NCBI GenBank assembly: GCA_029204225.1
Contig: CM055092.1
Coordinates: 70,993,472-71,057,471 of the forward strand
From: Diphasiastrum complanatum
Taxonomy: Eukaryota; Streptophyta; Lycopodiopsida; Lycopodiales; Lycopodiaceae
Direction: 5' to 3'
DNA length: 64,000 nucleotides
The notes below the pieces were generated by a model. The model saw only the letters and a program-made list of their open reading frames with translations. It was not told the DNA's origin and ran no database searches. This document shows positions 5,916 to 63,380 of the stretch, one piece after another. The position numbers and the translations under genes were made by a program. Within the stretch, counting starts at the first letter, position 1, and each line of letters starts with the position of its first letter.

Positions 5916-6359
5916 TTTGATGTTTTGACAATTTTTAAACTAGTTCTAATTTAAGTGCTGGAATCTTAAATATCACATAAAAGTGGTTGAATAAGCATGT
6001 TCAACAAATAAAAGCATTCAATGTAAACACTAGACAGTAATATGTAAAAATTACAATCATTAGTTGGATATATAAGAGACAATTATCAACAAGTGCATAA
6101 AAACCATTCATATAGTTCTATAGCAAACAAAAGATCAAACCATTTCCATTTTCTTAGACCGCTATCTAGAGAAGTAACAATTTGATGTAATGTCTCATGA
6201 AATGCAAGTACATAATAATGAGCCATGAACATTCTCAAAATTTGTTCGGTTCAAAATGAAAATCAAGCTCACTAGTTACATTCTATTGCAAAATGGCCGT
6301 TGGCTAGTAACTAGCAAACTAAACATGATAACATAGCAAAGCAAATAGTAAATCAAATG

Positions 6360-8090
6360 TCCTCAAGTGGTATAACATCGGCATCCTCAACATCAACCTA
6401 TAGTCAACATCTTCCTCATTCTTGAAACAATATATTATAAAATGCCTCTACTATATTGCATGCTAAGAAGCAATCCTCAAGCTCAGGAGGAACAAATGAA
6501 AAAGCATGAGAGGAAGTGTAAGCCATGCCCATCTCGCTATCCCTAACAAGCTGAGTAACACCATGTATTTCCAAGCCCTCCCTTATGTCGACTCTCTCAA
6601 CCTCCAACACCAATAATCAATCCTCATCTCTTGCCTCCTCGACTTGACCCTCGTGCCTTGATCTTATCAAAGATACCAAAGATGGCTTCAACCTATTTAT
6701 TCTCTTGGTATGAATCAAGGAGAAGGTATTTCAATTTCTCTCATAAGGAGAGGCTGTAATTCCTTGGCTAAGTATCCTGATTGCTAAGTATCCCATGATG
6801 GCTCCCTCACAATTTGTAACAACTTTAGAATGAGTTGGCATAGCTTCATAATATTCTCTCTCTCCTCCCAAAAAGATGGACCAAACAAAGATTGTATTCT
6901 CAATGTCTCTCCCCACTTTAGTTTGATGAGGACTTCAAGTTATGGCACTCCTCATAGACCACCAACCACCTAACCTCCAAGAGATTTGCAAGCACAATGT
7001 ACCTGTAGGCAAAGCGTGTTTCAACCGGCTTCAAAAGCTCACAATTGCTCACTTTTCGAAAAACACCTAGCACCATCCCGTGATGACCTATGATGAAAGT
7101 CACTATTTTATGTGCCTGCACCATCCCGTGATGACCTATGATGAAAGTCACTATTTTATGTGCCTTTTGCAAAACAGGAGCTACGCAACCTAGTGCTTCC
7201 TTCGATGTCCTCAAACAACAAATCTAGACAATTGCAAGTGCAACATGTCTTCGAATACTCCTAGCATCTTACCAACTCTCAAACAATTTGTGACATTATC
7301 CATTAAAATTTGTACCACATTGTGCTCTCCTACCTTGACAATGATTTCTTTTAATGTTGATAGATATACAAACCTGATTTTGCCAAACCACTAACATCCA
7401 CACAACATAAAAAGATAGTACCATAGATACTAGTAGCAACAAAGTTAATGATCGGTCCGTCTGTGTGTGTCAGACCAACCATCCATCACACACACGATCG
7501 TGCACCCATATTTTACCCACTTATCTTTTACCATTTGCAATTTTGCCTCCTCTCATAGATCTTTCACCTGGATAGCTCATAAGAAGGGGCTTTTCACTGA
7601 ACCATCAACCTCTCTTGTAGTTCTCAGCATATCCTGAAAGTATTTGCTCTTGAGTATGTTGAAAAGAAGTAGCATAAAAATATTTCCTTCAAGCAATAAA
7701 AAATTTCTCTCTTTTCTAAGGCAGGCTGTCAAACCACCAATATCTGCAGCTCGACCTCTAACATGTAGAAGCTTCATTGGATTGATTGCGCTCTATCTCA
7801 TGAGCTCCATCCTCATTGCTATTGACAATCTCAATGCTTACACCACGCTGACAAGTGGTTTCTCACATTTATCCACTTCACATCCTGCTGACCCAAGCAA
7901 ATGTGAAACAATCCTTTGAGGCCCTCCTTGATAATGATGTTCACAATAACGGCATTTCATCCATTTCATGCCTCCACCACCCTTCCCTTGCTTACACATT
8001 AGATTTTCGCTTAAGCATTTTGAAAATTGATAAAATTGTGAAGTTAAGATCTGAAAATTGTGCAAAAAGCCCAAAACCTGCAACTGCTCT
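6360..8090 (-). pseudogene. hAT-family transposase remnant (BED finger plus DUF659-type region)
   Basis: Reading down the minus strand, a BED-type zinc finger appears near 7850-8000 (KWMKCRYCEHHYQGG, then HLLG). Next comes SKYFQDMLRTTREVDGSVK near 7580-7650, then NVVQILMDNVTNCLRVGKML near 7230-7310 (DUF659-like, the usual V-Q-x-x-T-D-N-A core). ELLKPVETRFAYRYIVLANL follows near 6970-7050. This order is that of plant BED-DUF659-hATC transposases. The frames are separated by stops and frameshifts, the C-terminal dimerisation domain is not clear, and a 16-codon duplication lies inside (7070-7165). It cannot encode active transposase. Confidence 0.75.
7070..7165 (-). repeat. 48-bp tandem duplication within the hAT remnant
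   Basis: Two essentially identical 48-base units sit head to tail and duplicate 16 codons in frame (AHKIVTFIIGHHGMV twice). The near identity shows the duplication is younger than most mutations of the surrounding transposase remnant. Confidence 0.9.
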
Positions 8091-8545
8091 TCACAAGAAA
8101 TTTGGCCAAGCAGATGGTGATGTGAATAGCTAGGATGGAGCGCCCTAGAGTCTCAAAGACTGCCTCCAAATCTAAGTTGAATCTGATCAGTGACCAAAGA
8201 GGACCGATTGATTCTTGCACCAGCTGCTTGTATCTCCTCAATCAGGCTTCAGAGCTCTGATCTGATGTTCTCAATCACTCCAGCATAGTCCAAAACCCCT
8301 GCCTACAAGAAATCTTGGCAAAAGATGGAGAGGAGAGGGAGATTTGATCAATCACAAGAAATAAAGGGCACACTCCTTGTCCACGATGGAGCAGCAGTTA
8401 GTGAAGGAGTAATGAGGGCCGCATGAGCTGTCTCAGCCTCGTGGTACGTAGCTTTTTAGGTAGATGGAACCTAGACATGGTCCATTGGCCATTTGGACCC
8501 CATTTGGAGGGCTAGGGCCCCGGAAAAATTTCAGATACAAATGCC

Positions 8546-8602
8546 CACGTCTGAAACGTGTTTCAAACACATTTGAATAATCATTCAAACACGTTTCAGA
8601 TG
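8546..8602. repeat. imperfect palindrome at the right end of the hAT element
   Basis: The left arm GTCTGAAACGTGTTT is matched by the right arm AAACACGTTTCAGAT around a loop containing TGAATAATCATTCA, itself a palindrome. A further TTCGAAAGCGTTTGAA-like unit follows. This is consistent with the subterminal region of the hAT element and could form a hairpin. Confidence 0.7.
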
Positions 8603-8659
8603 TAAATGCTGGGCATTTCGAAAGCGTTTGAATAAGCATTCAAGCGCACTTGAATGCAA

Positions 8660-10105
8660 CCATGAATCCAAGAAATATGTCCACAAGCACTCATTATCAT
8701 AAGTCAGTCAAAGTAATAATTTTGGCAGGTACATTACATGCTCCAGTGACCGTGCATCCATCCAGCTTCATATTCTGTGGCTTTTCTATGGTTACCCGCT
8801 CCCACTGACATGAGCAAAACCGATTCATGACAGCAGGCATGAACAGTAAAAACAGGCATGTGAAGCCCAAAACAACCTGGACCTGAGAAAAAAGACGGCG
8901 ATTCGCCTAACCTTCATGGTCATCAAGTTCAGCTTCAAACAATGAATAATTGCGTAAAGACAGACGTGTATAATAACTCTGGCCTGCATGCATAGTGCCC
9001 TTATTCTGTTAGCTTACTACCTGTTGAGTTCATGAGTTCAGTGAAAACAACAGTTTTATCCACGCATTTGATAGCAGAATCTTGGATACGTTCTATAGGA
9101 TTCACCTTAGATCAATACCCATCACACCAAATCAGCTTTGTCTCTTGCAAACCAGTGTATGTGTTTGGTGATTAATACAAGAATGGAGTGCTACAAACAA
9201 ATCCACCAAGACGATATCACATACACTGAACTGTGAATGGTTAGATCAGACTCGAAATAAAACAATCACCAAAAGTATCAGGAACTCCTGACAAGTCAGT
9301 TGAACAGGCCTTTAAAGACAAAAAACACCATGTATTTCCCCTGGATTATAGCAACCATCAGGACCAAGCACTTAATTCTGATAAAATGTGGTCTACTAAA
9401 CAGGCCAAGACTGCCTCAGCTATCCTTCATGCCTTTTTCTCCTCTCAACAACAGGAGAAAATGGCTGATCAAATGTGGAAATTTCACAGGCCAGAATCAA
9501 TTGAGATTTAGAACAAAAGGTGACTAATAATAACTCAACAACTAAATTCACTTCCCCACAGACGAGGATATCCCAGATGTACTACCGATACAAAAACAAA
9601 GTCCTCAAACTACCCATTTGTGATAAGTACAGTTTTTGGACCCCTGTAATTAGTACAAGAATTATTCAACCAGTTCGATGGTCAATCTACCAATTTCTTC
9701 CAACAAAGCGTCTGTTTGAGAAAAGATAGGTGTAATTGCAAACAAGGCAGCTAGTCAATCTTCACAAGTTCAATGTGTGCCATATTTGTCAGAGAGAAAA
9801 GCTATCATTCATTCACACAACAATTTGTCAAATGTCACTCCCAATTTTCGAGGTCCGGCAAAAAATTCTAAACATCTAGTTCCGCATTAGCCTTTATCAA
9901 GTTAGCAACTGAGATGCAGAAGACAAAAACATATGCTGAAAATTTTCTGCTCTCTAGCTGAAAGTACAAATATGTAACATCTATTCACAAATCATGATCT
10001 GATTGTTGATAACAACAATAAACTAGGATCCAGAACTTGCTTTGCTGAAGTCTATTGTAACTCAAGTGTGACCATTCTACAAGAATCAGAATCCTGGTAA
10101 TGATA
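8660..10105. other. 3' flank of gene A; no gene recognised
   Basis: This is AT-rich sequence with scattered short open frames and no family motif. Its right part should hold the 3'UTR of the minus-strand gene ending at 10106. No poly(A) signal could be singled out among the many A/T-rich hexamers. Confidence 0.35.
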
Positions 10106-10178
10106 TCATATTCCTGCTTTGACTTTAGTAGAGCAACAGATGTGCGATTTCCAGAAGACGTCAACCAGTTTGCCAAAT
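10106..10178 (-). CDS. gene A predicted terminal exon 6
   Basis: The acceptor TGGTTTCATCAG|ATTTGG leads into a frame (FGKLVDVFWKSHICC...) that ends at TGA 10106-10108. In another phase the same bases read DLANWLTSSGNRTSVALLK, which looks equally plausible as protein. The exon is therefore likely but its frame is not secure. Confidence 0.35.
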
Positions 10179-12526
10179 CTGATGAAACCAATATGCAGCC
10201 TGTCCACTCAATGAAGGACTGTGGTTATGATATAACACGCCTGCCTTGATCTTTAGCGTACCTTGACTGTTTCCTCCTCCTATCATTGAAAAGAAGATCA
10301 AACAAAACATCTTAACAAAATGAGATCATATACAACAGCAACCAAACAGAAGCTAATCACGTGTTGGTATCAAAAAAAGCAATTAAAACCACCTACTTTC
10401 GACCGTGCTGGAATGATGCTTGCCCGCTACATGCAACATCCTTGGAAGGAGAAGATGATTGCTCCCCAGCTTGAACCATTTCATAGGCATCTGATGGACC
10501 ATTAGCAATTTTAGGTTTCTCAGTAAGTCGGGAAAAGTTGCGATCAATAACATGAAGGAGATTGATTGTACTTGTAACAAACTCAGATATTTGGTCAGTC
10601 TGTTTGGTTGTAACTGGAAAAGGAGAAGGGACGTGAAACTCGTATCCATAGATAGCTTTGAAAGGAGAAATCCCTGTAGAAGGGAAGATTGAGTTATTGT
10701 ATACAAACTCAACTAAGTGAAGGTTTTCTTGCCACTGCTGTTGTTGAGACGCTACATATGATCTCAGAAGATCCTCAAGTATCTTGTCAACTTTTTCAAC
10801 TTCACTATCATTTTCACCAATTTGTATCAGATTGAAATCTATAGTAACTCCAAACCTTTTCCACATAGAAATCCAGAAATCGTTTTTGAATATACTTGCA
10901 TCATCCGAGAGGATAAACTTTGGAAGGCCATGTAACCTTACAATGTCCGTGAAGTAAATACGAGCCATTTCAACGACAGTGAAGGTCTTCTTACAAGCTA
11001 CAAAATGTGCTTGTTTGGACATTCTGTCAACCAAAATTAAGATACAATCATGGCCTCCTGATGAGCTAGGAATCCCATCAACAAACTTTAAGATCACACT
11101 TTGCCATGAGCTCCTTAGAAGCTCTGGATCACCTAAAAGATTTTGAATTCCACTCTTATTGGGATTAAGACATGTAGTGCAAGAACCAACATACTTTTGT
11201 ACATCCTTGCGCATGTTAGGCCAGTAAAAGCTCGTTTGCAGCAATTGGCTGGTTACATCAGAATCCAAATGCTCATGGCCAGAAGATAAATGACATTTAT
11301 GTATAAGCTCATGGCGGAAATTTTCATCATTTACTACACAAAGTTTGTTTTGAAAGAACAAAAAATCATCTTGACGGGAGTACTCTGAAATGAATGAAGC
11401 TTGCGCTGATGTTAGTTCAGATTTTTCCTTTTGCATCAGATTATATGCCCTCATGAAACTTTTGTCTTGTGCATACTTGTCTTTCATGAATACATACATA
11501 TCCTCAGAAATCATATTTTGGTCAGTAGAGGCTAAACTTTCGCCTGTCTTGGTTTCATTTGGCAACTTTGAAACACCATGCTCCTTGATGAACTCTACCA
11601 TCTCCTTCTCTCTTCCTCGGTTTAAATGTGTACATAGGTCACTAGTTTCCCTCATGTCTCCATTCTGAACTTGTGTGTCAATGTTCTGAACCGAAGTAAA
11701 AGCAGGTTGAACAGATGAACCAGCTGGAACTTCATGAAGAGGCTCTTCTATGGCATCACTGTTGATGTTTCCCTTTTCTAAAGTTTTATGGGATCTATTA
11801 TCCTGCTCTTCCAAACCTAAGCTCTCTCCAGTTGCCACTAAGGAGTCATCCCTTTCCTTGCAGTTCTGCGGCGGTATGTTGGAAGGCAGCACCTCTGTAG
11901 GCTTTGCCTGCTTTTCTGTAACAACTTCCTTATCAAGGAATAGTTCTTGGCCAACTAATCCGAGTTCTTCACCAGTGGCCTGTTTTGATTTCTTTGAAGC
12001 TCTTGAGCTGCGTTGAATTTTAATCTCTGATTGTTCCTCCCTGAGATTAATTCTCCTTGTCTTCCTACCACTTGGTTGAGGTGACGTTTTATTTTCTGCT
12101 TGGTCTAAGGCTACATCATCACCATGCACAGTTTGCAGCTTAGTAGCTGCATGTGGCTTTGGAGCTTCCAAAGGTGAGACAGATTGAATCGAAGTAGCTG
12201 CATGAAACCAACAATGAATGGAATAAAAATTGCAGTCAGTCTACAAAAAAAGTGGCTATATTTATCAGATTAAACTTAAAACCTCATCTCTGTAGCCATA
12301 AAGAACATAACTTTGCAAGCACTTGGATTCATATCTGAATGTTGATAATTGATAAAATATACTGCTACATGCAAGTTTCATGAAGTCTTTCAAATAGGAT
12401 AATCAGAACAGAAACTTGATAGTTGGCAAATTCACCCAAACCATTCAGCATATCCATTATGGAAGCTTCAACTCGCTCGTTTTCAAAAGTGAGCCTTCAA
12501 ATTTGCTGTGCATGCACATGTTCGCG

Positions 12527-12608
<82 letters not shown>

Positions 12609-15600
12609 ATTTTTTATAAACAGTAAATATAACTACAACTTTCTTGCATTTCCAATCTGTAAAATATTGCATGGTTTCATTCTACAAGGTTAATGGGCAA
12701 GGAAGCATACCTCTATGAAAAGATAGGTCGCCAAAAAGCTGCCGAGCACGAGCCCAGTTCACAGCTTTGGTTAAAAGGTCATTTACACTGGAAGCTAGTT
12801 GGACACTAGTTTTTGCCTCAACTACCTCCTTCTCCCAAGCTGTTTTCTGGATAAAACAAATAAATATCTTGTTCAAAAGCGGCATGAATTTAATTCAAGC
12901 AACCAATCTTCTAAGCTTCCTTAATCACATTCAATTATTCGTGCTTTGGAGATTAAAGTCTGGAAACATGGGTGTTAAAAACAACCCCGGATTGAACCAT
13001 GACTGAGGATCTTATCAACGTGAGAAAGATGATCTTCAGTTACAAGTGAAAGAGTAACAACAAACAACAAATGACACCATAGTTTTATAAATTGTTGAGT
13101 CTTGAAGAACTTCCAAAATATCTTGGCCTGTAGAGTTTGTGAAATGTGCAAATGCAGAAAAAGATGCATGAGTTTTAAAGATTTCACAAAGGCTCCCATA
13201 ATGGGCTTAGTAGAATGCCGTCCAGTATCTCTTATCACAAGGCAATGCCCTAGAAGATGATGGAACTTGAAAAGGACAGTTCAATAGAGCATTAAGACAA
13301 CAAAGCCACCGATACTATGTAATCTCTGAGACAGAAAAGAAAATTTTCTTGAAGAGAGAAAAAACTGTGCAAGTTCAACTTGTCTTTGACAAATTTAGCT
13401 CTGAACCACTTTGATGTAGCCCTTGGTTGCATGCACCCAAGCAAAATTGTATTAACTCTTTAACCACAAATCTCTTGTGAACTCTTGGAAGCAAGCATAT
13501 GAAACACTTGATCTCCCTGATATTGAGAAGGAATGGCACAGGAAGTCCGAAGAGCTCACTGCTTCAGAGATAAATAAGACCAGCAAAAGGAAATTGAATG
13601 ATTTCTAGCCATAACACCTTGAATGAAGACATCATGGCAGCTAAAATGTTTGTAGCAGCAAACATGAGAATATTTCAAAAGGAAGAATATCAACCTGAAC
13701 TTTCCACCACTCAGTGGACACATTGACCTTCAACTGTCTTGAGATCTCTAATATTGAAAATGCCATTAAAGCAACATTTCTTGATTCAGAGGCGCTTGAC
13801 ACTTTAAATTTCCACTTATCCCACCAATTGTCTTTCATAGCATGCACCCCTTTATAAGGAAGTCTGTCCGCTGGAGACAACACAAAACGACTTATTAGCA
13901 AATAACCATGTACATACCAACTTTCTTCCCTTCTTAAGTTCGAATGTGGCGATAAATCTTGCATTTGGTATAGCTTCAATGTAACTAACTTCCTTGAACT
14001 GAATTTTTTGAACACAAAAACAACTCAAGACTATAACTGACAAATTGGTATAACTTGATAATTGTTGAACATACAAAACTGCCAAATAGTGACTTCAATT
14101 GTGTACACCCCATACATACAGTTTTGAAGTTAAACACATGAATGAAAGGATCCACACAAGTGTTATTCAATTATCAACATAGAGTGTGCAATGCATCACA
14201 AACACATACATTTCTGGCTGTTTGCAGCTACATGCATTTCTGGTTGCTTGAACCCGTACGATCTTAATCACATGGGGACGTATAAAACAGTGATGGGCAG
14301 AAAAAAACAGAGCTCAGAAAGTACAGTGAATCGAGAGAGAAAGTGCTGGTATGTCCGGTGTCAGCTTAGCAAACCTCCTGCCCCCACCCTCCCAAACTCT
14401 CTATGCATAGCTCTATGCTGATGTATTCTGTATAAATAGCTACAAACATCTTATTAGAGCTTACATTGTTTCTCTGAAGCACATGGTGTCTTTGATTCAG
14501 GTAGATCCCCAGAATACCTGATTACTTACACTGATTCATAGCGTCTTTGAATCAGGTGGATCCCCAGAAGACCTGATTACTTATCATTGGTCATTCTGAC
14601 AGCATCAATAACCTCCTGAAAGCTGAAGACTGAAAGTTCCAAGGTTTCATTGCAGTTTGGTTTACGGAATCTTTAGCACCAAAAATTCAATACGTTGGAA
14701 CATCTTTGACTTCTGTTGCGCAAGTTCAAAGATTTTCCAAATCTCATCGTATTATCAGATCTGCTTCTACAGAGGTTTAAGGACCTGTACAGTTAGGGGC
14801 TAAGAAATACTTAAAATATCAAATTTTAGTCTGGATTTTCAAAAGTTACAATGCACCAACTTCAGGATTTAGGATTTTCTTCATCTTCCTCATCTTCATG
14901 TACAAAATGCAAAAGTTCTTAGTCTTGATATCATGAAACATACGGCACTTGAAATTCATCGTTCAGGGTTTGAAGGATCCTTGATCTCCAAAATCAAATA
15001 GTGACAATGGTTCCCCCAAAAAATATCAAGCAGCTTGTGGATTTTGAAGATCGGTAGTAGCAGTGAGGACTCTAACCTGATCCTTCAGCAAGGGAGTATG
15101 AGCAAAAGTATCAATGGGCTTCCTGGTCACCAGTAAAGTGACTATCCAACTGTGCATCAACTATGCTAAACTCCAACCTAAGCAATAGCAGCTGGCAAGA
15201 AAGAAAAGAGCTTAGGGTCAGTAGGAAACCCAGCATTATAGACTCATTTCAGTATGATATACTCATCAGGCCCAAGGGAAGTGTGTAGTAAAATTAAGTG
15301 AAATGTGTCCCAGGCTCTAGGAGTAGGGGGAAGCTATAATTCGTATGTGATCAGACTAACAGACTGATCTTGTGCAATACACGAATACGACCGTAATAGC
15401 GAGAAACCAACTTCCCTTTCCTGAGACTAATCCTATGCAAATATATGCCTAGCAAAGAGAAGGCACAAATATGCATTTGGGCCCTTATCAAGTCCATATA
15501 ATGACAATGCATATCCACAACATATATATCAGACACCCATGTGTCACTTGTGACTGTCTTGGGTCTTAGCTAATAGCCTCTTGAACATCAAATGTATGTT

Positions 15601-17133
15601 TACCGGTGTCCATCTCCATCTCATCATCCAAGGCCTTCTCACCATCATCAAATCCCTCCTCCTCATCCCTACCCTCCTCTCCTACATCCTTTGCATTGGC
15701 CCTAGCCATGGACCTAGTGGTCCTACACTGCCTCCTATCTGTCGGGAATACTATGAAGGAATCCTCGGTGCATGAATCTATGTCTATTGGATTCGAACTA
15801 TCGTCGTTAATTCGACAATGGTTCTACTTATTCTGAGCTTCGAAGTCACAAGGATTGACGCAATCGATTCCGTATACACACAAATCTGATAAAGATGCAG
15901 AAACGTGAATAGGCCAGGCAAGTCAGAGCCAGAGCATTACAATCGACGTTAACTGTCAGTCATGAACCTACTAAATGCAACAAATCAGACAACACAGACG
16001 ATAAAGCAATCAACACGACACAGACACGACTCTATTTACTAGAAACAATTCTATTAAGTCGAAAGTATGTGTACAGTCTGAGAGCATTTAGATACGCGAT
16101 CTTTTTGAAACAATACTCTATAAAGTCAGAGAGCAAGATCGAATAGTTGCGCTCTGATTGAATGTATGATTCATCTGATTCTCTCATTAACGAACACTGA
16201 TGTGTTATTAAATATTTATACATGGTAGCTATACAATTACAAGAATGCTTAATCAATAGATTTGGATTAAGGCACTACGTGTTGTAAGTCGCTGTTGGAG
16301 AGAATCTGTTCTGTTGGAGATTTTGCGAAAATTACGGGGTCGTGAAAGTAGACAAGTTTGAGACGTATTCAATAGTGACATCGATAGTGTCTTCGTCACT
16401 TCGACTCGATAGTGTCGATACCTGTTATTGGTATTTCTGTAGACTGTGTGAGACTGTACAAGTATTTCCAGCACATGGATGGATCTAGATTAGCTATGAG
16501 ATAGGGTTGGAGAGGATAGGAATCCAACACGATCCACTGTAACCATGTTCCGGAATGTCAACAATCCATGACCCGGACCACCCAAAAAAAAAACTTAATA
16601 GGAAAAAAGCCTAATAGTTGAAAAGATATTTATAGTTTAGTTATACCATGCCAAGAGCTAGGAGTTTCAAGAACAACGTGGTCCAGTTTTGTGAAACAAT
16701 GACAACGTTCCAGAACCAGGCAGGATATGTAGATCAGATATTAGGAGGTTCAATCAAGCAATGTGATTCCATACATGCACACCTTGATATGCATACGCTC
16801 GGACTTGATTTTGCTTCATTAAAGTCTAGGACTCCCAGAGTACTTTTGAGGTCATTGATGTACCATAGAAGGAATCAAATTAAAACCCGACGGCATTCAT
16901 AGCATCTGAAAATTTGGCATAAGCTCTTTGGTAGTCACCCTCCTGAAAAACTTGTAGATTACAATCGATCAATGAACAAAATGACCAATTTTGAGTCTTG
17001 ATTGGAGCGTCAGAACATTCGAGTCCCGTCTAATACCCCTATTGTCATGATCCATACTACGTAGTACATACATTCATGGTTTGAGAGAGGAAAGAATTAA
17101 CAAACCCTGAGAAAGAATTGATGAAACAATTTT

Positions 17134-17164
<31 letters not shown>

Positions 17165-19666
17165 GGGGCATTTATTTCTAGCCTTCTATTATGGCAAAAG
17201 CACACTATTCTAAGTTCTAACAATAATCTTAAAATTAACACTATTCTAACAATAATCTTAAAATTAACACCACACTAACAGTTCTCTCAAAAACAGCAAC
17301 TCTAAACACAACAATAGAACTCTTTAAAACCCAAACAAACAACTGCATATTTTTGTTTTTTAACCGTTTCATTTAATGGAAATCCATTTCATATGGCCCA
17401 TTTTCAACTAACCATTTCGAAACAGAGTTCATTTCATGAGAAACATTTCAATGAAACTGTGGCCAACATTGAATATGATCACCTTGAAAAAATAGTTCTC
17501 TTGATTATTTTGATGACTAAATGAGAGCTAAAATCTTTAGTAAAACGTATCCAAAAAGTACCTTTCACCAAGTCAAAGGAAAACATCCTGTAACTCTAAG
17601 ATACTATCCAACATAACAAAGTACAATTTTTCACTTCTAATCCACCCACAATCTTGATCCCCCCTCTATGGTAGAGCCTCTCCAACTCTTATGATCTTTT
17701 TCCCTTTGGTCACAAGGGTAACTCAAGTATCTATGCACAATTCTCCACCAAGTAAAATTACACTCAGCGGCAAATATCCATGTTCGATTAGGAGGACTAC
17801 CCTTCAAGATCAAGAATCAAGAACTGAAGACACTAAGCAATGAAGCTTGCCTCCATGAATAGATATATCAACGTTAAGTCTAGGATAGCATCCGACATAC
17901 TAGAGGAGATCAACAAGATTTCGGACCACCAACTCTCTATTGCCTCCATAAATAGACTCTCTCCAAACCTTAAGAATTCCCTTTGCCACGTGGTATATGC
18001 CAATTCACCTTCTATGCCAAGTAGATTTAGTTTTAGGTGGCATACGTCCAAGTTGATTCGGAAAAAGGTACGTTGTTCAAAGGTGAGAAATAGAAAGAGA
18101 ATCTTTGGGCCTCTCCAAGCAGCTTCTTGCCTTTGAAATTGAAATACATTTTGTCCTTCTTATTAAGCTCTAGAATGCATGCACTAGTCATCAACACAAC
18201 CACTTGCTTTAAAGATTTGGAAATCGACGCTCTTTTCATCAAAAAAAAAAGTATTACAATTTATAGCCAACTTGGCCTTCCAATTATTGTACAACAATAT
18301 TTGGTTGTTCTGTGCACCAAAGAAAACAATATTTCTACGAAATCGGTGTAACATTTGCCCTTTCATTTGGCTCTGTCAACAGGGGGTGGCATAGCAATGG
18401 CACAAACATAGTAGAATCCAAATGATTGAAACTCAAAACATTCAAAAAGCATCTGAAAACTATGAGTCACAACTTTAAACATTTGAAACATTGCCAACTT
18501 ATTAGGGTTTTTACCCTTGGAAGGGGTTGATAAGCGTACAGGGGAGATATATATGAAGTGGATGAATTAGCATGTAGAAGCAACAAAATCTTACAAAAAT
18601 TAACATGAATAACAAAAATGCATTTTTTTTCATGCAGCAGACGCCCTGATCATCCCACAAGGGCCCATCATTCAAAATGTTGTGTAGACAAATAAATGGT
18701 GCCTCTTGGGTATCTGCCACATTGGACAACCACTAACGATATCGGACACAAGAAAAAGAAACATGACCCAAAATATTGGATAAGAAACAATCCACTAAAA
18801 ACATGCCCAGATACTTTATGTAAGTTTGGGCCTGCTTTGACTCACTCACTGACACTTTTTGAGGCCCTTTTGACCTTCAGACCTTTATATAGAATCTTCG
18901 AAAAAAAAAACAATTTCCGTTTGAAACAAGTTTAGAGCGTCAAGGTTTCAAGCAACTTTGAGACGCCGAGGTCTGAGAAGAGTTTCAAAATGCTAATATG
19001 ATAACGGGTCAAAATTCTGGCCAAATCTGCAAAATTGCCAGGGAAAAAGGATGGTTGTCTGAGGGGCCATGAGAGGGAATGAAAGGCGGACTGGCAGAAT
19101 CTGAAATCTGAATGGCATAATTTTGAAGGGCACAGGAAACTGAGGAATATCCTTCACATGATTTGGCAGTTTCTTGCGATCCACCGACCAGCTTATCCCA
19201 TCCTAGGACGGCCTTCATGTCCCCTTCAGTATAAAAGGGCGTTGGCGTTGTCTTAACTCTTACCGGCCCATGGGAGAGGTGGCCGGCCCTTCAAAACAGA
19301 ATTTTTGATAAGTTTCTTTGTCAAGCCAAGAAATAGAGGAAATTCCTGATTGCTAGACATAAATAATCATTTATTAAAATGGTCTTCCCCGCGAATAGCG
19401 CCCTTCACCCTGCCCTTCCTCCCTTCAAAGCCCTTCATGCAAATCGCCGTCACGAACGCGGCCTTCATTGATGTTAAAGCCCTACCCTTCAGTCTAGCAT
19501 CCAACTCCCTTGACTTGGGCCCTTCCAATTTTTCCAGAACGCTTTCAAAGTCCATAAATGGAAAAAATAAAATAAAAATCAAAGCTTGTGAATTACAGCA
19601 ACACACCAAAACCCTCCACTTATTCGTACATGATCCTGGAAAGGCGCTAAAGATGATGAAGCATAA

Positions 19667-19704
<38 letters not shown>

Positions 19705-20257
19705 CAAATTACCGATGTCAAAAAGAGTTTCCTTAAGGAACTTCCACTGCTTGTTTCCACTGGAACCGCTTGACAATACCGCCTTTCTTGCTGAATCCTT
19801 GTTGCTGTGAATTTTGAACTTGTCGATGTTGAGGTGGATGACCTCTTTCTCGCCATCATCATACAGAACTTGACATGAGTGTGAGGCTTCGTCGTAAGAA
19901 AGAACTTGCCCGTAATACCATTTTTTGTCGCCGTCCCAGTAGATTGAAATGCTATCTCCAGCTTTCACTTCCTTCCCACTCATGTCTACCTCTGGCGTGC
20001 AAACCGCTGTCGCTTGTCAACCTTGACTCAGCACCAATTACGATCCAACCCACCTCTGCCTAGCCGTTTTCCGCTCCTTTAATCCCCTTCCTTGCTGCTG
20101 GAATTCTCGTTCACCTCATGTTCTGGCAGGGGTTTAAGCTCACACATACCAGTCAATGATGAAACCTTCAAAGAAACAACTACAGAGTCAGAACTTGCAG
20201 CAGCACCATGCGACCATACATACAGCAAACCATAAACGGCCTTCTTTAGATTTTACC
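10106..20257 (-). CDS. gene A: Tudor-like domain protein fused to a Ty3/gypsy integrase (predicted six coding exons)
   Basis: The predicted coding exons are 19983-19713, 13870-13695, 12846-12711, 12197-10397, 10279-10262 and 10178-10106. All junctions are GT-AG and every phase matches, giving 824 residues. Residues about 6-60 form a Tudor-like fold (SISIYWDGDKKWYYGQVLSYD, LYDDGEKEVIHL). Residues about 91-194 are Trp-rich and helical. Residues about 195-420 are a basic, Ser/Glu-rich linker, and about 425-760 a gypsy integrase. Tudor folds read histone marks and integrases bind DNA, so a chromatin role is inferred. In the integrase the zinc-binding His/Cys are kept, but the first catalytic Asp is Lys, so strand transfer is unlikely. 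The 5.8-kb first intron could hide further exons, and the last two exons are the least certain. A fortuitous chain is unlikely given seven consistent phases, but transcript evidence is absent. Confidence 0.7.
10262..10279 (-). CDS. gene A predicted microexon 5 (18 bases)
   Basis: Between the acceptor TTCAATGATAG and the donor GTACGC lie 18 bases that, joined to exon 4, turn the tail into GRKRRKQS, a strongly basic stretch that could be a nuclear-localisation or nucleic-acid-binding tail. Splice sites are good on both sides, but a microexon is hard to establish from sequence alone. Confidence 0.4.
10397..12197 (-). CDS. gene A exon 4: linker plus Ty3/gypsy integrase with lost first Asp
   Basis: The acceptor TTGGTTTCATGCAG|CTACT enters in phase 1, and some 600 codons follow without a stop. 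Residues are numbered from the codon at 12171. Positions 1-225 are a Ser/Glu/Lys linker with basic patches (GRKTRR, RASKKSKQ). Positions 226-345 hold the integrase N-terminus, with the zinc-binding set H294, H299, C331 and C334 and the signature FYWPNMRKDVQKYV. Positions 355-475 are the RNase-H-fold core: VILKFVDGIP carries Lys362 where active gypsy integrases have Asp, Asp423 sits in LSDDASIF, and Glu459 is kept. FVYNNSIFPSTGISPFKAIYG ends the core-proximal region. The exon ends at AAA|GTAGGT; unspliced, a TAG follows at 10395. Confidence 0.85.
12525..12607. repeat. (GA)n microsatellite in gene A intron 3
   Basis: About 40 perfect GA units lie between the predicted exons 3 and 4. Open frames coding Arg-Glu repeats here are artefacts of the repeat. 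Confidence 0.97.
12711..12846 (-). CDS. gene A exon 3: helical segment with WSD-like ending
   Basis: Bounded by TTGTTTTATCCAG|AAAACA and CATAGAG|GTATGC, 136 bases, phase 0 to phase 1. It encodes KTAWEKEVVEAKTSVQLASS and then VNDLLTKAVNWARARQLFG. The pattern A-x-[ST]-x-x-Q-L-A-x-x-[VL]-x-x-L-x-x-A-[IV]-x-W resembles the conserved helix of BAZ/WSTF, MBD9 and PTM-type proteins (WSD motif). This supports a chromatin-remodelling ancestry for the host half of the fusion. The resemblance is from memory of the pattern, not an alignment. Confidence 0.7.
13695..13870 (-). CDS. gene A exon 2: Trp-rich helical segment
   Basis: The acceptor TTGTGTTGTCTCCAG|CGGAC and the donor GTTCAG|GTTGAT bound 176 bases. 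They enter in phase 1 (G|CG) and leave in phase 0, matching exons 1 and 3. The peptide contains DNWWDKWKFKV, then an amphipathic helix (VALMAFSILEISRQLKV), then TEWWKVQ. The alternation of Trp pairs and a Leu-rich helix recalls the WHIM/WSD regions of ISWI-associated and DDT-domain proteins, but I cannot prove that family by eye. Confidence 0.7.
14479..14585. repeat. 57-bp imperfect tandem duplication
   Basis: Two adjacent units share GTCTTTGA-TTCAGGT-GATCCCCAGAA-ACCTGATTACTTA with a few substitutions. It lies in gene A intron 1. Each unit contains the short inverted pair CAGGT...ACCTG. Confidence 0.8.
17131..17168. repeat. T-run followed by about 24 consecutive G
   Basis: A homopolymer T tract passes directly into a G tract of about two dozen bases. 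Such runs are rare and error-prone, so the true length is uncertain. A run this long could form a G-quadruplex. Confidence 0.85.
19668..19701. repeat. (CT)n microsatellite just inside gene A intron 1
   Basis: About 16 CT units start only about 12 bases downstream (in gene sense) of the exon 1 donor. Confidence 0.95.
19713..19983 (-). CDS. gene A exon 1: Tudor-like chromatin-reader domain
   Basis: The ATG at 19983 opens 90 codons ending at the donor ATCG|GTAATT (phase 1). The segment GDSISIYWDGDKKWYYGQVL / DGEKEVIHLNIDKFKI has the aromatic, acidic and beta-strand spacing of Tudor-like domains seen at the ends of plant PDS5, MSH6 and ATX-type proteins (W-x-x-D-K-x-[WF]-Y-x-G-x-V-x-x-Y-D ... 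Y-D-D-G-E). The aromatic cage residues Trp, Tyr and Tyr are present. Beyond the donor the frame runs into a (GA)n tract, which marks the exon end independently. Confidence 0.8.
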
Positions 20258-20430
20258 TGTTGCGAAAAAACAGCATCAATCGCCCCATCAAGTCCTACCT
20301 TCCGAGCCAAGTAACCCGGTCGTTCAAACGGTAAAAGGCGCAAGGCTGGGCGCGGGAGGGAGAGAAGGAAAAAGAAAGAAAGAGAGAGGAGGGGAGGAGG
20401 GAGAATCGAGAGAAAAAGTACAGAAATGTG
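20257..20430 (-). promoter_or_regulatory. gene A first (non-coding) exon and CT-rich leader
   Basis: On the minus strand a pyrimidine-rich stretch (CT/CCT tracts, about 20340-20405) typical of plant core promoters and leaders precedes an exon ending CAACAG|GTAAAATC, a good donor at 20257/20256. The next exon carries the ATG at 19983, so this would be a 5'UTR intron, common in plant genes. Sequence between the intron and the ATG has stops in the ATG frame, supporting 19983 as the start. The transcription start is a guess. Confidence 0.45.
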
Positions 20431-23234
20431 AGTAAATGTGCCGTAACACATAAATAGACACACCGCAGCTACACAGACAGACCTAAATAAAGCCTTTATT
20501 TAACCTAAACCTAGGTAGGTCCTGTGAGAGATGACCAACCCCCGCTCCAGGCTCCTCCTCCTCCTCAATCTTCTCCATACATACATAATCAATTCATCAT
20601 TGAGGGGGCAGCCTTTAATTAATGCTTCTACTTCGCACTCCAAACAAGTTAAGCTAATGAAGGAGTGCACTAAAAGTAGAGATCCCCCCCCCCCCCCCCT
20701 TGAGTTTATTGGGGGGTGGGGGAACCTCCAAGGCAGTTTCGTGCCTTTGGTCGAGGACGATAGCCCGAAGTGGAAGTGTCTTCACATGGTGGAATGGACG
20801 ATGAGTTGGACCTTCTTTCACATAAAAACTTCCATGTTTTTTAAACTTTTTTTTGTCATAAAATTTTTTTACATGCACATCCCAAAAGGCGCCTATAAAA
20901 AATTTTGAAAAAAAAAAAGAGAGGAGCGCACATATTCTGTTGTGGGAGACATCTCCTTTTTCTTCATGAAAAAGGAAAAAATGATTTTACAGCTTAAGAA
21001 GGACTTTCACCCTAGGACTCATGACTCAAGAAGACCCATTGCCCGAGGGTGAGAGCCTTGAGAGCTTGGCCCTGACACGAGCTCCAAGAGGACCCATTAC
21101 CCGAGGGCGAGAGCCTTGAGAGCGTGGCTCCAACATGAGCTCCAAGCCATTGATGTTAACCCCGCGTAATGTTAACATGTGAATCTATTTTGGTCTTTTT
21201 TTTTTTAAATTATGTTTTTATGGGATTGAAACTTGAAAGCTTCACAAGCGCCATCCATAAATTTGGTCAAAAGGTGGTACTCTTTTCATTCTTAAGCCAA
21301 TTTAGTTTCTCAAGATAAAACAAGTACAAAGAAAATATGAACACTTAGCTAGATGGAGGTGGCGAAGGAGGTCGGAGGCAAGATGCGATAGAGGCAATGA
21401 GGCCTGTAAGAGGTAAGAACAGGAAAGCAAGGAGCAATGGAGACAAGAGGTAGTGAGGTACGAGGCAACAAATGGTAGTAAGAATTAGTGGAGGCGGCAT
21501 GAGGCAACAAGGAGGTAGCAAAGCCACCTAAGAGTTAAATGATCTCAAGAAGTGTTATAAATATTAGTGCTAAGTGGGCACCCATCCTAGGCAAGTTAAA
21601 TTACCTAAGCTCAATCATTATAATTGTTGGGTGGGTATATTGACGCGTGGTTATGAGCAACATGTATCATTGCAAGGTCAACGTATTTTGCACCATTGAT
21701 GACAACTTAGTGATGGTGCAGATACCATCCAAGGGTGGTGGTGGGAGCTGCACCACCTGCCCCTTCTTCTCCCCATCTATCTTTGCCCTTCCATCATTGG
21801 ATGGAAGGTCCCAATAGTGCCACAAATAGTGGCAATGTAAAATACACTGATCCCATTGCAAATATCAACAGCTTCCGGACTCGCCAACAAGTATACAATT
21901 CTTAGAAAAATGTTATTTATGGAGAACCACAAATATAGGTTGATGGATACTCATGTTAATACTCTATTGATAACCAATCTTATATGCAGCAATTAACCAC
22001 CAAGTAATCATCGAGTATTAGGATTTTCGTTGGTATCCAGGATCGACAAGTAAGCCACCTAGGGTAGTTTTAATATACATAGAATTGACAATTATAACTG
22101 AAATCAATAGTAACATAGCAAAAATTACCCTCCCAACACTAGTATATACCCATGTTCTGGGAGCATTGACTTTATTTGATACCCGCTAAGTTTGGGTATA
22201 TGAAAATTTTGGAATTTCACTTTTGGCCGTTATGGGTATTGCTAATAGAAAAAATGCAAGGTTATGGCTGCATTTGGTTATATGATTTTGTGGTGGGTAT
22301 CGACAGATCTTAATTGGATATTGGTATTTATTGGTCGAGTTCTACATGGGGTATTGGCTAGGTAGTGTCATTTTTTTCATATCCATCATATATCAATATT
22401 GAACCGTTATCAAAAATTACAAATTTTCAGTACTACTCATGGTGCCCTAAATACATTGGTGGGCACCAACAAAGTATTAGCCTTTCAAATCATATGCATA
22501 TTGCACTTTAGAAAGTCATGCTTTAAAAAGAAAGTGATTTTACAAATAGTTTATTTATTTATATTTGGAATTTTCCTAAGCTGGTATCACCCTTATAATA
22601 CCCAGGCCAATTGATACTAGCCACCAGTTTGTAAACATGCTTATATTCATACTCGGATGCTATCAAACTTATTTCTGAAAGTGTAATATGAGGACCTAGT
22701 TATTATTGAAAATTTCAATACCTGCCCACCACTAGTACTTGCCATAAAACAACTCTCCTAAACAAGACCTTTTTCACAACACTACTCTCAAAATTTTAAT
22801 GCTCCAAGCCCATTATTCAAATTGGAATTTCACCAACTAATTTTGATGTTTGTAAGTTTTTTAGCTCTTGAAGTGATTACCTTTATTTACATATTTCAAA
22901 TTTATGGATTTTATTCCATTTTCATTGAAGCATTGTACACATGAAAAAGGGATGCATATTTGCAACGATGGCACTTTGGGAAATATTGTCCTAAACACAT
23001 TAGATAATTATTATTTAATGAAAAGAGGAGCTACAAGTTGCAATTGGATGAGGTTTCATTTTTGCAACTCGATCAAAAGCAACTCTGCCATATGGTTGTG
23101 ACAATCATAAAGTATAAGAGGAAGTTTTGCATGCATAGAGGGGACATCTATTAGCACTTAATTTTGTTGGGTTATTTTTTCTTTCACATCCATTTTGAGA
23201 TTATATGATCCATAAATTAATAACAAGCAATATG
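20431..23234. other. unassigned region upstream of gene A
   Basis: No convincing coding region is seen. It contains a C homopolymer (about 20684-20698), a GC-richer 57-bp tandem duplication at about 21018-21140, a T/A-rich segment with TTTTTTTACATGCAC related to one near 53010, and AT-rich spacer. The promoter of gene A should lie at its left end. Confidence 0.4.
21018..21140. repeat. 57-bp tandem duplication (two copies)
   Basis: The unit AGACCCATT-CCCGAGGG-GAGAGCCTTGAGAGC...GAGCTCCAAG occurs twice in succession with small changes. It is more GC-rich than its surroundings and of unknown origin. Confidence 0.8.
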
Positions 23235-24190
23235 TGTTGGAAATTAAGCCCACAGTTGTCTCCTTGGAATCACAACTTAGACAGCCAAATTATTTGAAGA
23301 ACGTCTACAAGGGGCTTCTGGTTGATCTCCAGCAAAGGGTAACCAATCTTGTCATATTTTCAAGTTCAGATGTTAAGTTCAATTATTTGAAGTCATTGAA
23401 GACTTGGCCATCTTCAAGGACTTCCAAGAACTAGCATTTAGAACAAGTCTGCAGAAATACACTAAGTGTCGCAACAGTCTGCAAAATTACTCTAAGTGTC
23501 GCTACAGTCTGCAGAAATGAACTATCTTTTACACAGTGTCGACTTTTCCCGAAAAGCGACAGTGTCGGCTTTTCCCAAAAAAGCAACACTTCAGCACAGT
23601 TCACATTCAAATTTTTGCGACAGTGTCGGTTTTTTCGCATTTTCTCGAAAAAGCGACACTTGCCTTAAACTTCTTCCTTTCAACTATCTTGAAGAAGTTA
23701 ACTTGTTTTAAGGGCACCATCGGCTTTCAAAGGATAATGTCGTCTTTTTAAAGGCACTGTCGGCTTTTTTCGCAAAATCCTGAAGAGAGAGAAAAAGTGA
23801 CAGTCGTCTATTTTTCAACGAGGAACGTTCCAGGCACTTCCTGTAAAATGCGAAGTGAGAGAATTTGCGACGTCCTCGTCCGCGACAACATTCCCTACAC
23901 GTTGATGTGCACACAATGTACAGTTGTCATCTCAAGCCAATACTTCCAAGTACAACGGCTTGCCTAATTAGATGACAAACATTTATTGTAACTAATACAT
24001 GGATGCAATGTATAAATGGATCATCCGGGCACACTCTATGTGATGCTCCGTCCATGAGACATATGATTTGAGCCTCCCAATTACGCCGCCACTTTGGTTG
24101 TAATTGCTATCTTATTGTGCTTCAGTGTAATATAGCAACAACATGTTTTTATCTGTATATAACGTAGATGAATGCTTGTTGTGATTGAAT
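23235..24190 (+). mobile_element. copia LTR, plus strand, solo or truncated
   Basis: It begins TGTTGGAAATTAAG, the same start as the minus-strand LTR ending at 56922. It shares with it GGGTAACCAATC, the CAAGGACTTCCA-type segment, the AAAGCGACA / TTTTCGCATTTT modules, and ATAACGTAGATGAATGC near its right part, after which the two diverge. No matching internal region or second LTR lies next to it, so it is a solo or right-truncated LTR. Confidence 0.7.
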
Positions 24191-28829: not shown

Positions 28830-52232
<23,403 letters not shown>

Positions 52233-62579: not shown

Positions 62580-63380
62580 CTAACTGCCCACCAAAAGAAA
62601 TTTAGCATTTTTTGGTAAAGTAAACTTGAGCCCAGGGAACAATTCATGTAGAAACAAGTTGTTTGAAATTTCATACAATCTTCCTCTTGTGAAGCCGTTA
62701 TTTTGAAAAGCAAGAACAATGTTTTTGACCTCATCCATAAAGGAGACCTGTTCGCTACAACAGTACATGGCAGCAATAGTTTGAGCGACAATCACTTTAT
62801 ACGAGTTCATAATTGGCCTATTGGCAGTTAAGTGTATATACTGAAAAAACAAAAACGGAAATTCCCGTCTTTTGTTAAAAAAATTTATATGAAACTTTCC
62901 TGATAAAGAATCAAAGGTAGTGGTAATATTCAAAAAATTAACCGTGTTATCCAAAGCGTCTTCTTTTTCAATAGTGAGGTACTCCAAGGGATAGATCCAT
63001 AAGGCATTATCATCGATACGAGGTTGCTCCTTGTCTAGAAATACAAGAGTATCTATGTTGTTTATGAAACAAATATCATCAATATAACGGAAAGTGTGCT
63101 TGAAGGCACGTAGGTATTCCATTTTTCCAAGCCTGGCCAGTCTTTTCATAGAATGTATTCCAAAGAATGATAGATACCAGTTACACCAAGTAGGGGAACA
63201 GGCAAAACCCATAGGAATACCACAGACCTGTTTCCAGGTCCTATTTCCTAATCTTCCTATGCAATTGTCAATCAGTATATCATTATACTGGCAAAGAGGT
63301 TCTATGTCAATCACAGTCCAATTATTAGTCTGATTGGTCACCCATTTCCAGTCAAATTGCTTAAGGCTTGATTGAGACAT
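62580..63380 (-). pseudogene. Penelope-like reverse transcriptase, copy 1
   Basis: About 266 codons are open. RT motifs in order: GNRTWKQVCGIPMGFACSPT then WCNWYLSFF (motif 4), FRYIDDICFINN (motif 5 with the two catalytic Asp), TVNFLNITTTF (motif 6) and KFHINFFNKRREFPFLFFQY then NRPIMNSYKVIVAQTIAAMY (motif 7 and thumb). This order and wording fit Penelope-like elements rather than LINE, copia or gypsy RT. The N-terminal fingers and first catalytic Asp are missing, and the frame ends NAKFLLVG* with no GIY-YIG endonuclease behind it. Penelope is my best call; another non-LTR-like RT family is possible. Confidence 0.7.

Follow-up and report, generated by a model that had tools for sequence, protein, structure and literature searches.

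A predicted Diphasiastrum complanatum gene, one of a small family, that joins a Tudor domain to a probably non-catalytic Ty3/gypsy integrase

The 64,000 nucleotides of Diphasiastrum complanatum DNA analysed here (the window; contig CM055092.1) hold, on the reverse strand, a predicted gene in which a Tudor domain and a Trp-rich helical module are joined to a Ty3/gypsy-type integrase region. Five exons encode a predicted protein of 812 aa that consists, in order, of the Tudor domain, the helical module, a linker, an H2C2 zinc finger, an integrase core and a basic tail. Exon 1 (19713..19983) contains the start codon ATG and the Tudor domain, exons 2 (13695..13870) and 3 (12711..12846) encode the first and second halves of the helical module, exon 4 (10397..12197) encodes a basic linker and the integrase region, and exon 5 (10225..10279) adds a short basic C-terminal tail and the stop codon. 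An earlier note on this DNA had proposed the first four exons, and their coordinates, GT-AG sites and matching phases were all borne out; the note had overlooked exon 5, into which the donor after 10397 leads and in which the frame terminates (10279-10225). The splice between exons 3 and 4 is probably real, judging from its GT-AG sites and compatible phase.

The integrase region had been described as open for about 600 codons, and exon 4 indeed has 600 open codons within a frame of 615 codons, stop to stop (10393-12240). Simulation of 60 sequences of 64 kb gave open frames of at most 203 codons at the composition of the window and 218 at that of exon 4; the frame observed is about three times as long as these. 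Of 300 copies of the frame simulated under neutrality, about 1 was still open after 0.1 substitutions per site and none after 0.2. No match to reverse transcriptase (RT) or gag was found by Pfam in the 812-aa protein, and positions 6000-24000 of the window hold no direct repeat of at least 40 bases except two short tandem pairs (7070-7165, perfect, 48-base; 21027-21142, imperfect at 86%, 58-base), a result that diverged repeats could escape. By the criteria used, namely flanking long terminal repeats (LTRs), RT and gag, the gene is no longer part of an element.

Within exon 4, the H2C2 (HHCC) zinc-binding domain (11164..11328; PF17921, 3.6e-15) keeps all four ligands, and the RNase H-like integrase core (10639..11094) matches that of Ty3 (7q5b, 3.4e-22) and is predicted to be non-catalytic; the core itself gave no Pfam match. 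A structure model of the integrase region, with a mean predicted local distance difference test score (pLDDT) of 63, matches the Ty3 intasome by Foldseek (4.3e-13), and homology to LTR-element integrase is clear from the H2C2 domain, the Ty3 core and the Foldseek match. The first catalytic position (11086..11088) is Lys (AAG), the second catalytic Asp (10903..10905) is kept by alignment, and the Glu at the third position (10795..10797) is kept behind an altered loop. Six gypsy integrases, including two near copies, have 28 alignment columns that do not vary among them. Of these columns the gene retains 19, the four zinc ligands among them, and has lost nine: the first catalytic Asp, five active-site-loop positions and three in the zinc-finger region. 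The SH3-like and chromo C-terminal region is absent by Pfam. The description of this region as a complete gypsy integrase thus stands for the H2C2 domain and the core, and fails for the first Asp, the loop and the SH3-like/chromo region; catalysis has probably been lost, to judge from these residues. Compared with a chromovirus integrase, the version in the window shares the H2C2 domain and core, appears non-catalytic and lies within a spliced host gene.

Eight gypsy loci taken from this genome (L001-L008) are 30-35% identical to the integrase in their main matched stretches, seven of them at E 1e-20 or better and L008 more weakly; they are the best H2C2 matches among 150 scored of 32173 candidates. 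A comparison of the exon 4 protein with viral contigs gave no match, and a Pfam match of the protein to geminivirus BL1 (E 0.014, below the cut-off) was set aside.

The gene is not alone in its genome. A search of exons 1-3 against 1.74 Gb in 5176 contigs (51 matches from 63 candidates, E up to 10) revealed three further loci in which the Tudor exon and exons 2 and 3 follow one another on a single strand, namely the C15 paralogue (about 7.10-7.12 Mb), the C1 paralogue (about 12.35 Mb) and the C2 relative (about 31.97 Mb). In C15 and C1 an integrase exon lies downstream of exons 1-3; exon order and strand are as in the window gene. The C15 integrase exon is 45% identical over 365 columns and sits in a frame of 1253 codons, and that of C1 is 40% identical over 346 columns, in a frame of 561 codons. 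No stop falls inside the integrase matches (340-365 aligned columns in C15, 346 in C1), these frames having been selected as open. Judged by eye, the phases of introns 1 and 2 agree in all four loci, as do those at the C1 exon 3 end and at the last C15 intron; in C15 a last exon with the same phase as window exon 5 follows the integrase exon.

The three genes also share their catalytic changes. In both paralogues the first catalytic residue is Lys, the second Asp is retained and the Glu was not found in a gapped stretch. Across the family an intact DDE triad is missing: Lys replaces the first Asp in 3/3 members, as against Asp in 7/7 compared gypsy integrases (three of the seven being near copies), and the Glu was not found in 2/3; the zinc ligands are kept in 3/3. 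A maximum-likelihood tree built from ten integrases separates the family members from the seven gypsy integrases with 100% bootstrap; the seven include three near copies, and L002-L004, L007, L008 and P0005-P0006 were left out. The earlier note had proposed a search of related plant genomes for the same Tudor plus integrase architecture, and we found that architecture in two paralogues of the gene's own genome, with the same Asp-to-Lys change. Because two sister genes have the same design, the host seems to have kept the fusion for its own job. The C1 gene also matches SH3_Tf2-1 and Chromo, so the source of the integrase was probably a chromovirus, that is, a Ty3/gypsy element with a chromodomain; Pfam found no SH3-like or chromo match in the C15 gene. 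The linker of the C15 paralogue (L033, 3786-7544, minus strand) has expanded into many Gln-/Ser-rich repeats of, by eye, roughly 25-30 residues, and its frame has remained open.

Comparison of the paralogues points to purifying selection. For the integrase exon, the NG86 method of Nei and Gojobori gave nonsynonymous (dN) and synonymous (dS) divergences of 0.46 and 2.70 between the window and C15 genes (397 codons) and of 0.60 and 1.54 between the window and C1 genes (380 codons). The host exons of the window and C15 genes gave a dN of 0.44 and a dS of 3.43, with 2/6 host pairs lacking a computable dS; the host and integrase halves are constrained alike in this pair. The claim that selection has kept the frame is thereby strengthened, since dN/dS is below 1 in 2/2 computable integrase pairs, with dS near saturation, and neutral frames close.

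Exon 1 had been credited with a Tudor-like domain, which we could assign to the RDM15 type. The domain (residues 5-56, about 19971-19816) was placed by Pfam and by sequence comparison with the PDB, in which its nearest solved relative is Arabidopsis RDM15 (7de9, 9.4e-8). RDM15 binds histone H3 monomethylated at lysine 4 (H3K4me1) through a cage of Trp616, Tyr623, Tyr641, Asp643 and Asp645 (PMC8184781). A gapless alignment places W16, Y23, Y41, D43 and E45 at these positions, so that the window protein has such a cage, made up of one Trp, two Tyr and a pair of acidic residues, sharing the Trp, Tyr, Tyr and Asp with RDM15 and differing in the last, which is Glu instead of Asp; by alignment, the Gln of the H3R2 pocket is also replaced, by Asp. 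To our knowledge, RDM15 has no integrase. The C15, C1 and C2 loci show the identical cage set in alignments, as does a separate protein, P0010, whose predicted model (mean pLDDT 60, about 75-80 over the Tudor part) also finds RDM15 first (9.4e-5). We lean towards the view that the domain reads an H3K4me1-type mark, or a similar methyl-lysine. Other matches to the Tudor exon lie in long open frames of 434-578 codons (C7:2955423, C1:7479174, C14:48632082 and C3:70140890), and these four are perhaps other reader proteins.

Exons 2 and 3 together form the Trp-rich helical module, for which no credible PDB match was obtained, the matches being designed repeat proteins with aligned stretches at E >1000. 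Among about 5.8 billion sequences, P0010 (source code lgn; 179 residues, from a contig of 1000 bases) is the only protein found whose match to the host part extends past the Tudor domain. It is 44% identical over exons 1-3, has no intron at the exon 1/2 or 2/3 junction and differs in its letters from the window, C15, C1 and C2 loci, and it appears to support the splicing of exons 1-3 independently of the genome loci. Its final residues, which we take to be an Illumina adapter, mean that it bears on exons 1-3 and not on the integrase part. A protein named G-box-binding factor 3 from Hibiscus (P0001), which holds an integrase, was rejected because its sequence and the domains listed for it suggest a gene model joined in error.

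The C2 relative suggests where the host half came from. There, the Tudor exon and exons 2-3 are followed by same-strand frames with a PHD finger (5.4e-10) and a first chromodomain (6.3e-6) in one frame, and with a second chromodomain (6.2e-11), whose best PDB matches include CHD5, CHD1 and CHD4, and SNF2 (6.4e-14) further on; no integrase match was found on the gene's strand within about 20 kb downstream, where a gypsy fragment lies only on the other strand. PHD, double chromodomain and SNF2 are described as marks of CHD3 proteins, the ancestors of MOM1, and an N-terminal homology region (residues 33-140) is reported as common to MOM1 of Arabidopsis, poplar and Selaginella (PMC2507757). The C2 relative thus combines these domains as the plant CHD3/MOM1 family does, while the window gene has none of PHD, chromodomains and SNF2 by Pfam. 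Because the Tudor and helical exons precede PHD, chromodomain and SNF2 exons in C2, the host half probably derives from the 5' part of a CHD3-type remodeller gene. The earlier note had not noticed this resemblance, the probable chromovirus source or the probable loss of catalysis. Exon-3-like fragments of a C2-type gene are also scattered genome-wide (34 of the 51 match rows, 26 of these 34 with E above 0.1). Examples are L030 1021-1140 and 2364-2483, L031 1394-1537 and L032 1279-1491; several fragments are paired, and they are nearly alike in the three loci read, as if exon 3 of such a gene had been captured and spread by a mobile element.

Domestication of the integrase as a host gene best explains the window gene, and we put its probability at about 0.93; the gene would be one of at least three of its kind in the genome. 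An alternative is that two neighbours, a Tudor-helical gene and a separate domesticated integrase gene, were duplicated together and that the exon 3-4 junction is coincidental. No transcript joins the halves, and the gap between exon 3 and the integrase exon grows from 0.5 kb in the window to about 12 kb in C1 and about 16 kb in C15, as two genes would allow. However, the phases of exons 3 and 4 are compatible in the window and, by eye, in C1, exon 4 opens at a splice acceptor and starts alike in the window and C1 genes (SPLEA/SPVEA), and constraint is similar on the two halves; two genes are accordingly improbable. It is a good deal harder to believe that a mobile chromovirus captured the Tudor-helical exons and that what look like host genes are copies of that element. 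The genome-wide exon-3-like fragments do suggest amplification, but the family copies retain introns, their exon 4 frames have no RT or gag match, they are few, 34-43% identical and alike in their catalytic Lys, and no direct repeat of at least 40 bases flanks the window gene, strongly diverged repeats being able to escape. Least credible is that a gypsy copy in decay was recently turned into an exon by chance, without selection, for although decayed retroelements abound around the gene, three diverged copies are all open, dN/dS falls below 1 in both computable pairs and 0/300 neutral copies stayed open at 0.2 substitutions per site. An active element was rejected on the broken DDE triad, with Lys for the first Asp, and on the spliced host-gene context.

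Several observations weigh against the domestication of a fused gene or blunt the evidence for it. Intron 1 is 5.8 kb long, no transcript was seen across the exon 3-4 junction, and no protein of the fused Tudor-integrase architecture was found in the roughly 5.8 billion sequences, by searches that needed shared 5-residue words and one of which scored the best 7992 candidates only. The Tudor matches in Pfam lie mostly just under the cut-offs (PTM_DIR17_Tudor 24.4 of 27.2 bits; LBR_tudor 22.2 of 22), the helical module gave no Pfam hit and its structure model is weak, and the C1 matches to SH3_Tf2-1 (8.6e-7) and Chromo (3.9e-5) are both slightly below the Pfam cut-offs. A stop is flagged in the C15 exon 3 match, which by eye appears to be the TAG of the splice acceptor. 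Values of dN/dS of about 0.15-0.4 are rough because dS is near saturation, and dS could not be computed for the integrase exons of C1 and C15 (1/3 pairs). The identities of the gene to gypsy copy L005 at codon positions 1-3 (0.48, 0.63 and 0.28) are not telling, because the decayed relic in the window shows a like pattern (0.59, 0.69 and 0.36); this pattern mostly reflects older history. Gypsy families closer than L001-L008 may exist in the genome, and nothing ties the protein directly to silencing.

The gene's anatomy, its family, the probable loss of catalysis and the constraint follow from the evidence above, and a possible history can be proposed for them. A remodeller gene of CHD3 type would have been duplicated at its 5' end, with the Tudor domain and helical module, and this duplicate spliced onto a chromovirus integrase, which became the new 3' end. 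The gene copies would have separated only after the halves had fused and the first catalytic Asp had been lost, and purifying selection would have kept the frame thereafter. In the resulting protein, the Tudor domain may read H3K4me1 or another methyl-lysine mark like it, the helical module may dock a partner and the dead integrase may act as a scaffold that binds DNA and proteins. The protein would in this way tether factors to chromatin, most likely for silencing or to shield genes from retrotransposons. We regard this account as likely when taken as a whole, from a selected host gene family of CHD3-type and chromovirus origin to a chromatin tether. The role in silencing or retrotransposon control is drawn from the gene's two sources and is tentative. 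RDM15 is reported to join H3K4me1 to RNA-directed DNA methylation (PMC8184781), and H3K4me1 has also been tied to repair proteins with Tudor domains (PMC13361950). It is possible, if rather unlikely, that dead integrases on H3K4me1 gene bodies block or join incoming chromovirus integrase complexes as a host defence, diverting insertions from genes or marking the element for silencing; if so, the family could hold both a euchromatic address and the old heterochromatic one, the chromodomain match persisting in C1.

Integrases are described as able to become host genes, to lose catalysis and to fuse to cellular genes. For example, the vertebrate host genes GIN1 and GIN2 derive from a gypsy-type integrase and retain the HHCC zinc finger; GIN2 has not retained the DDE triad (PMC3424704). 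As far as such descriptions can be compared, the window gene likewise keeps the HHCC motif and differs in not being a vertebrate gene. We know of no Tudor or CHD3-derived partner in GIN1 or GIN2. Imagin, a crustacean gene from Ginger1, keeps the H2C2 domain and the core, has lost the catalytic triad and is under purifying selection (PMC12863088). It differs in its DNA-transposon origin and its crustacean host, and the passages of the source at hand mention no chromatin-reader partner. NYNRIN (CGIN1) and Lyosin are cited as domesticated elements fused to cellular genes (PMC12863088). Fusion to a cellular gene is what these two have in common with the window gene. Their partner domains and lineage are different. 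In plants, the plant mobile domain proteins carry a domain presumably from Ty3/gypsy elements (PMC8616336); they resemble the window gene in being plant and Ty3/gypsy-derived, and the available description does not present them as integrases. No plant-domesticated integrase was found in the open-licence literature searched or in the review passages at hand, and the pairing of a Tudor/CHD3-type module with an integrase was not found in that literature.

Domesticated integrases have thus been described in vertebrates and crustaceans (PMC3424704, PMC12863088), and here a chromatin reader appears spliced to a dead chromovirus integrase. The family copies differ in what they retain, SH3 and chromo matches being present in one and missing from two, and as a series of stages they may show how catalysis and the targeting domain are lost from a host-transposon fusion. 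It also makes it testable whether plants use the remains of integrases to read, mark or defend chromatin.

The surroundings of the gene contain further traces of mobile elements. No RNA family and no tRNA were found in the window. According to the earlier note, every other gypsy pol segment in the window is riddled with stops. Of the segments checked, the integrase relic at 48242-48640, the sole other one found in the window, has one stop in its aligned part, and a gypsy-type RT fragment that lies with the relic at 47272-48640 (plus strand) is open for 171 codons. Just downstream of the gene, at about 8152-6380 (minus strand), lies what looks like a hAT transposase in decay that includes a BED-type zinc finger; the one frame tested there had no Pfam match. 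A 266-codon open frame at 62580-63380 (minus strand), without a clear PDB match, has a weak RVT_1 match (0.0018, below the cut-off) and is perhaps a Penelope-like element.

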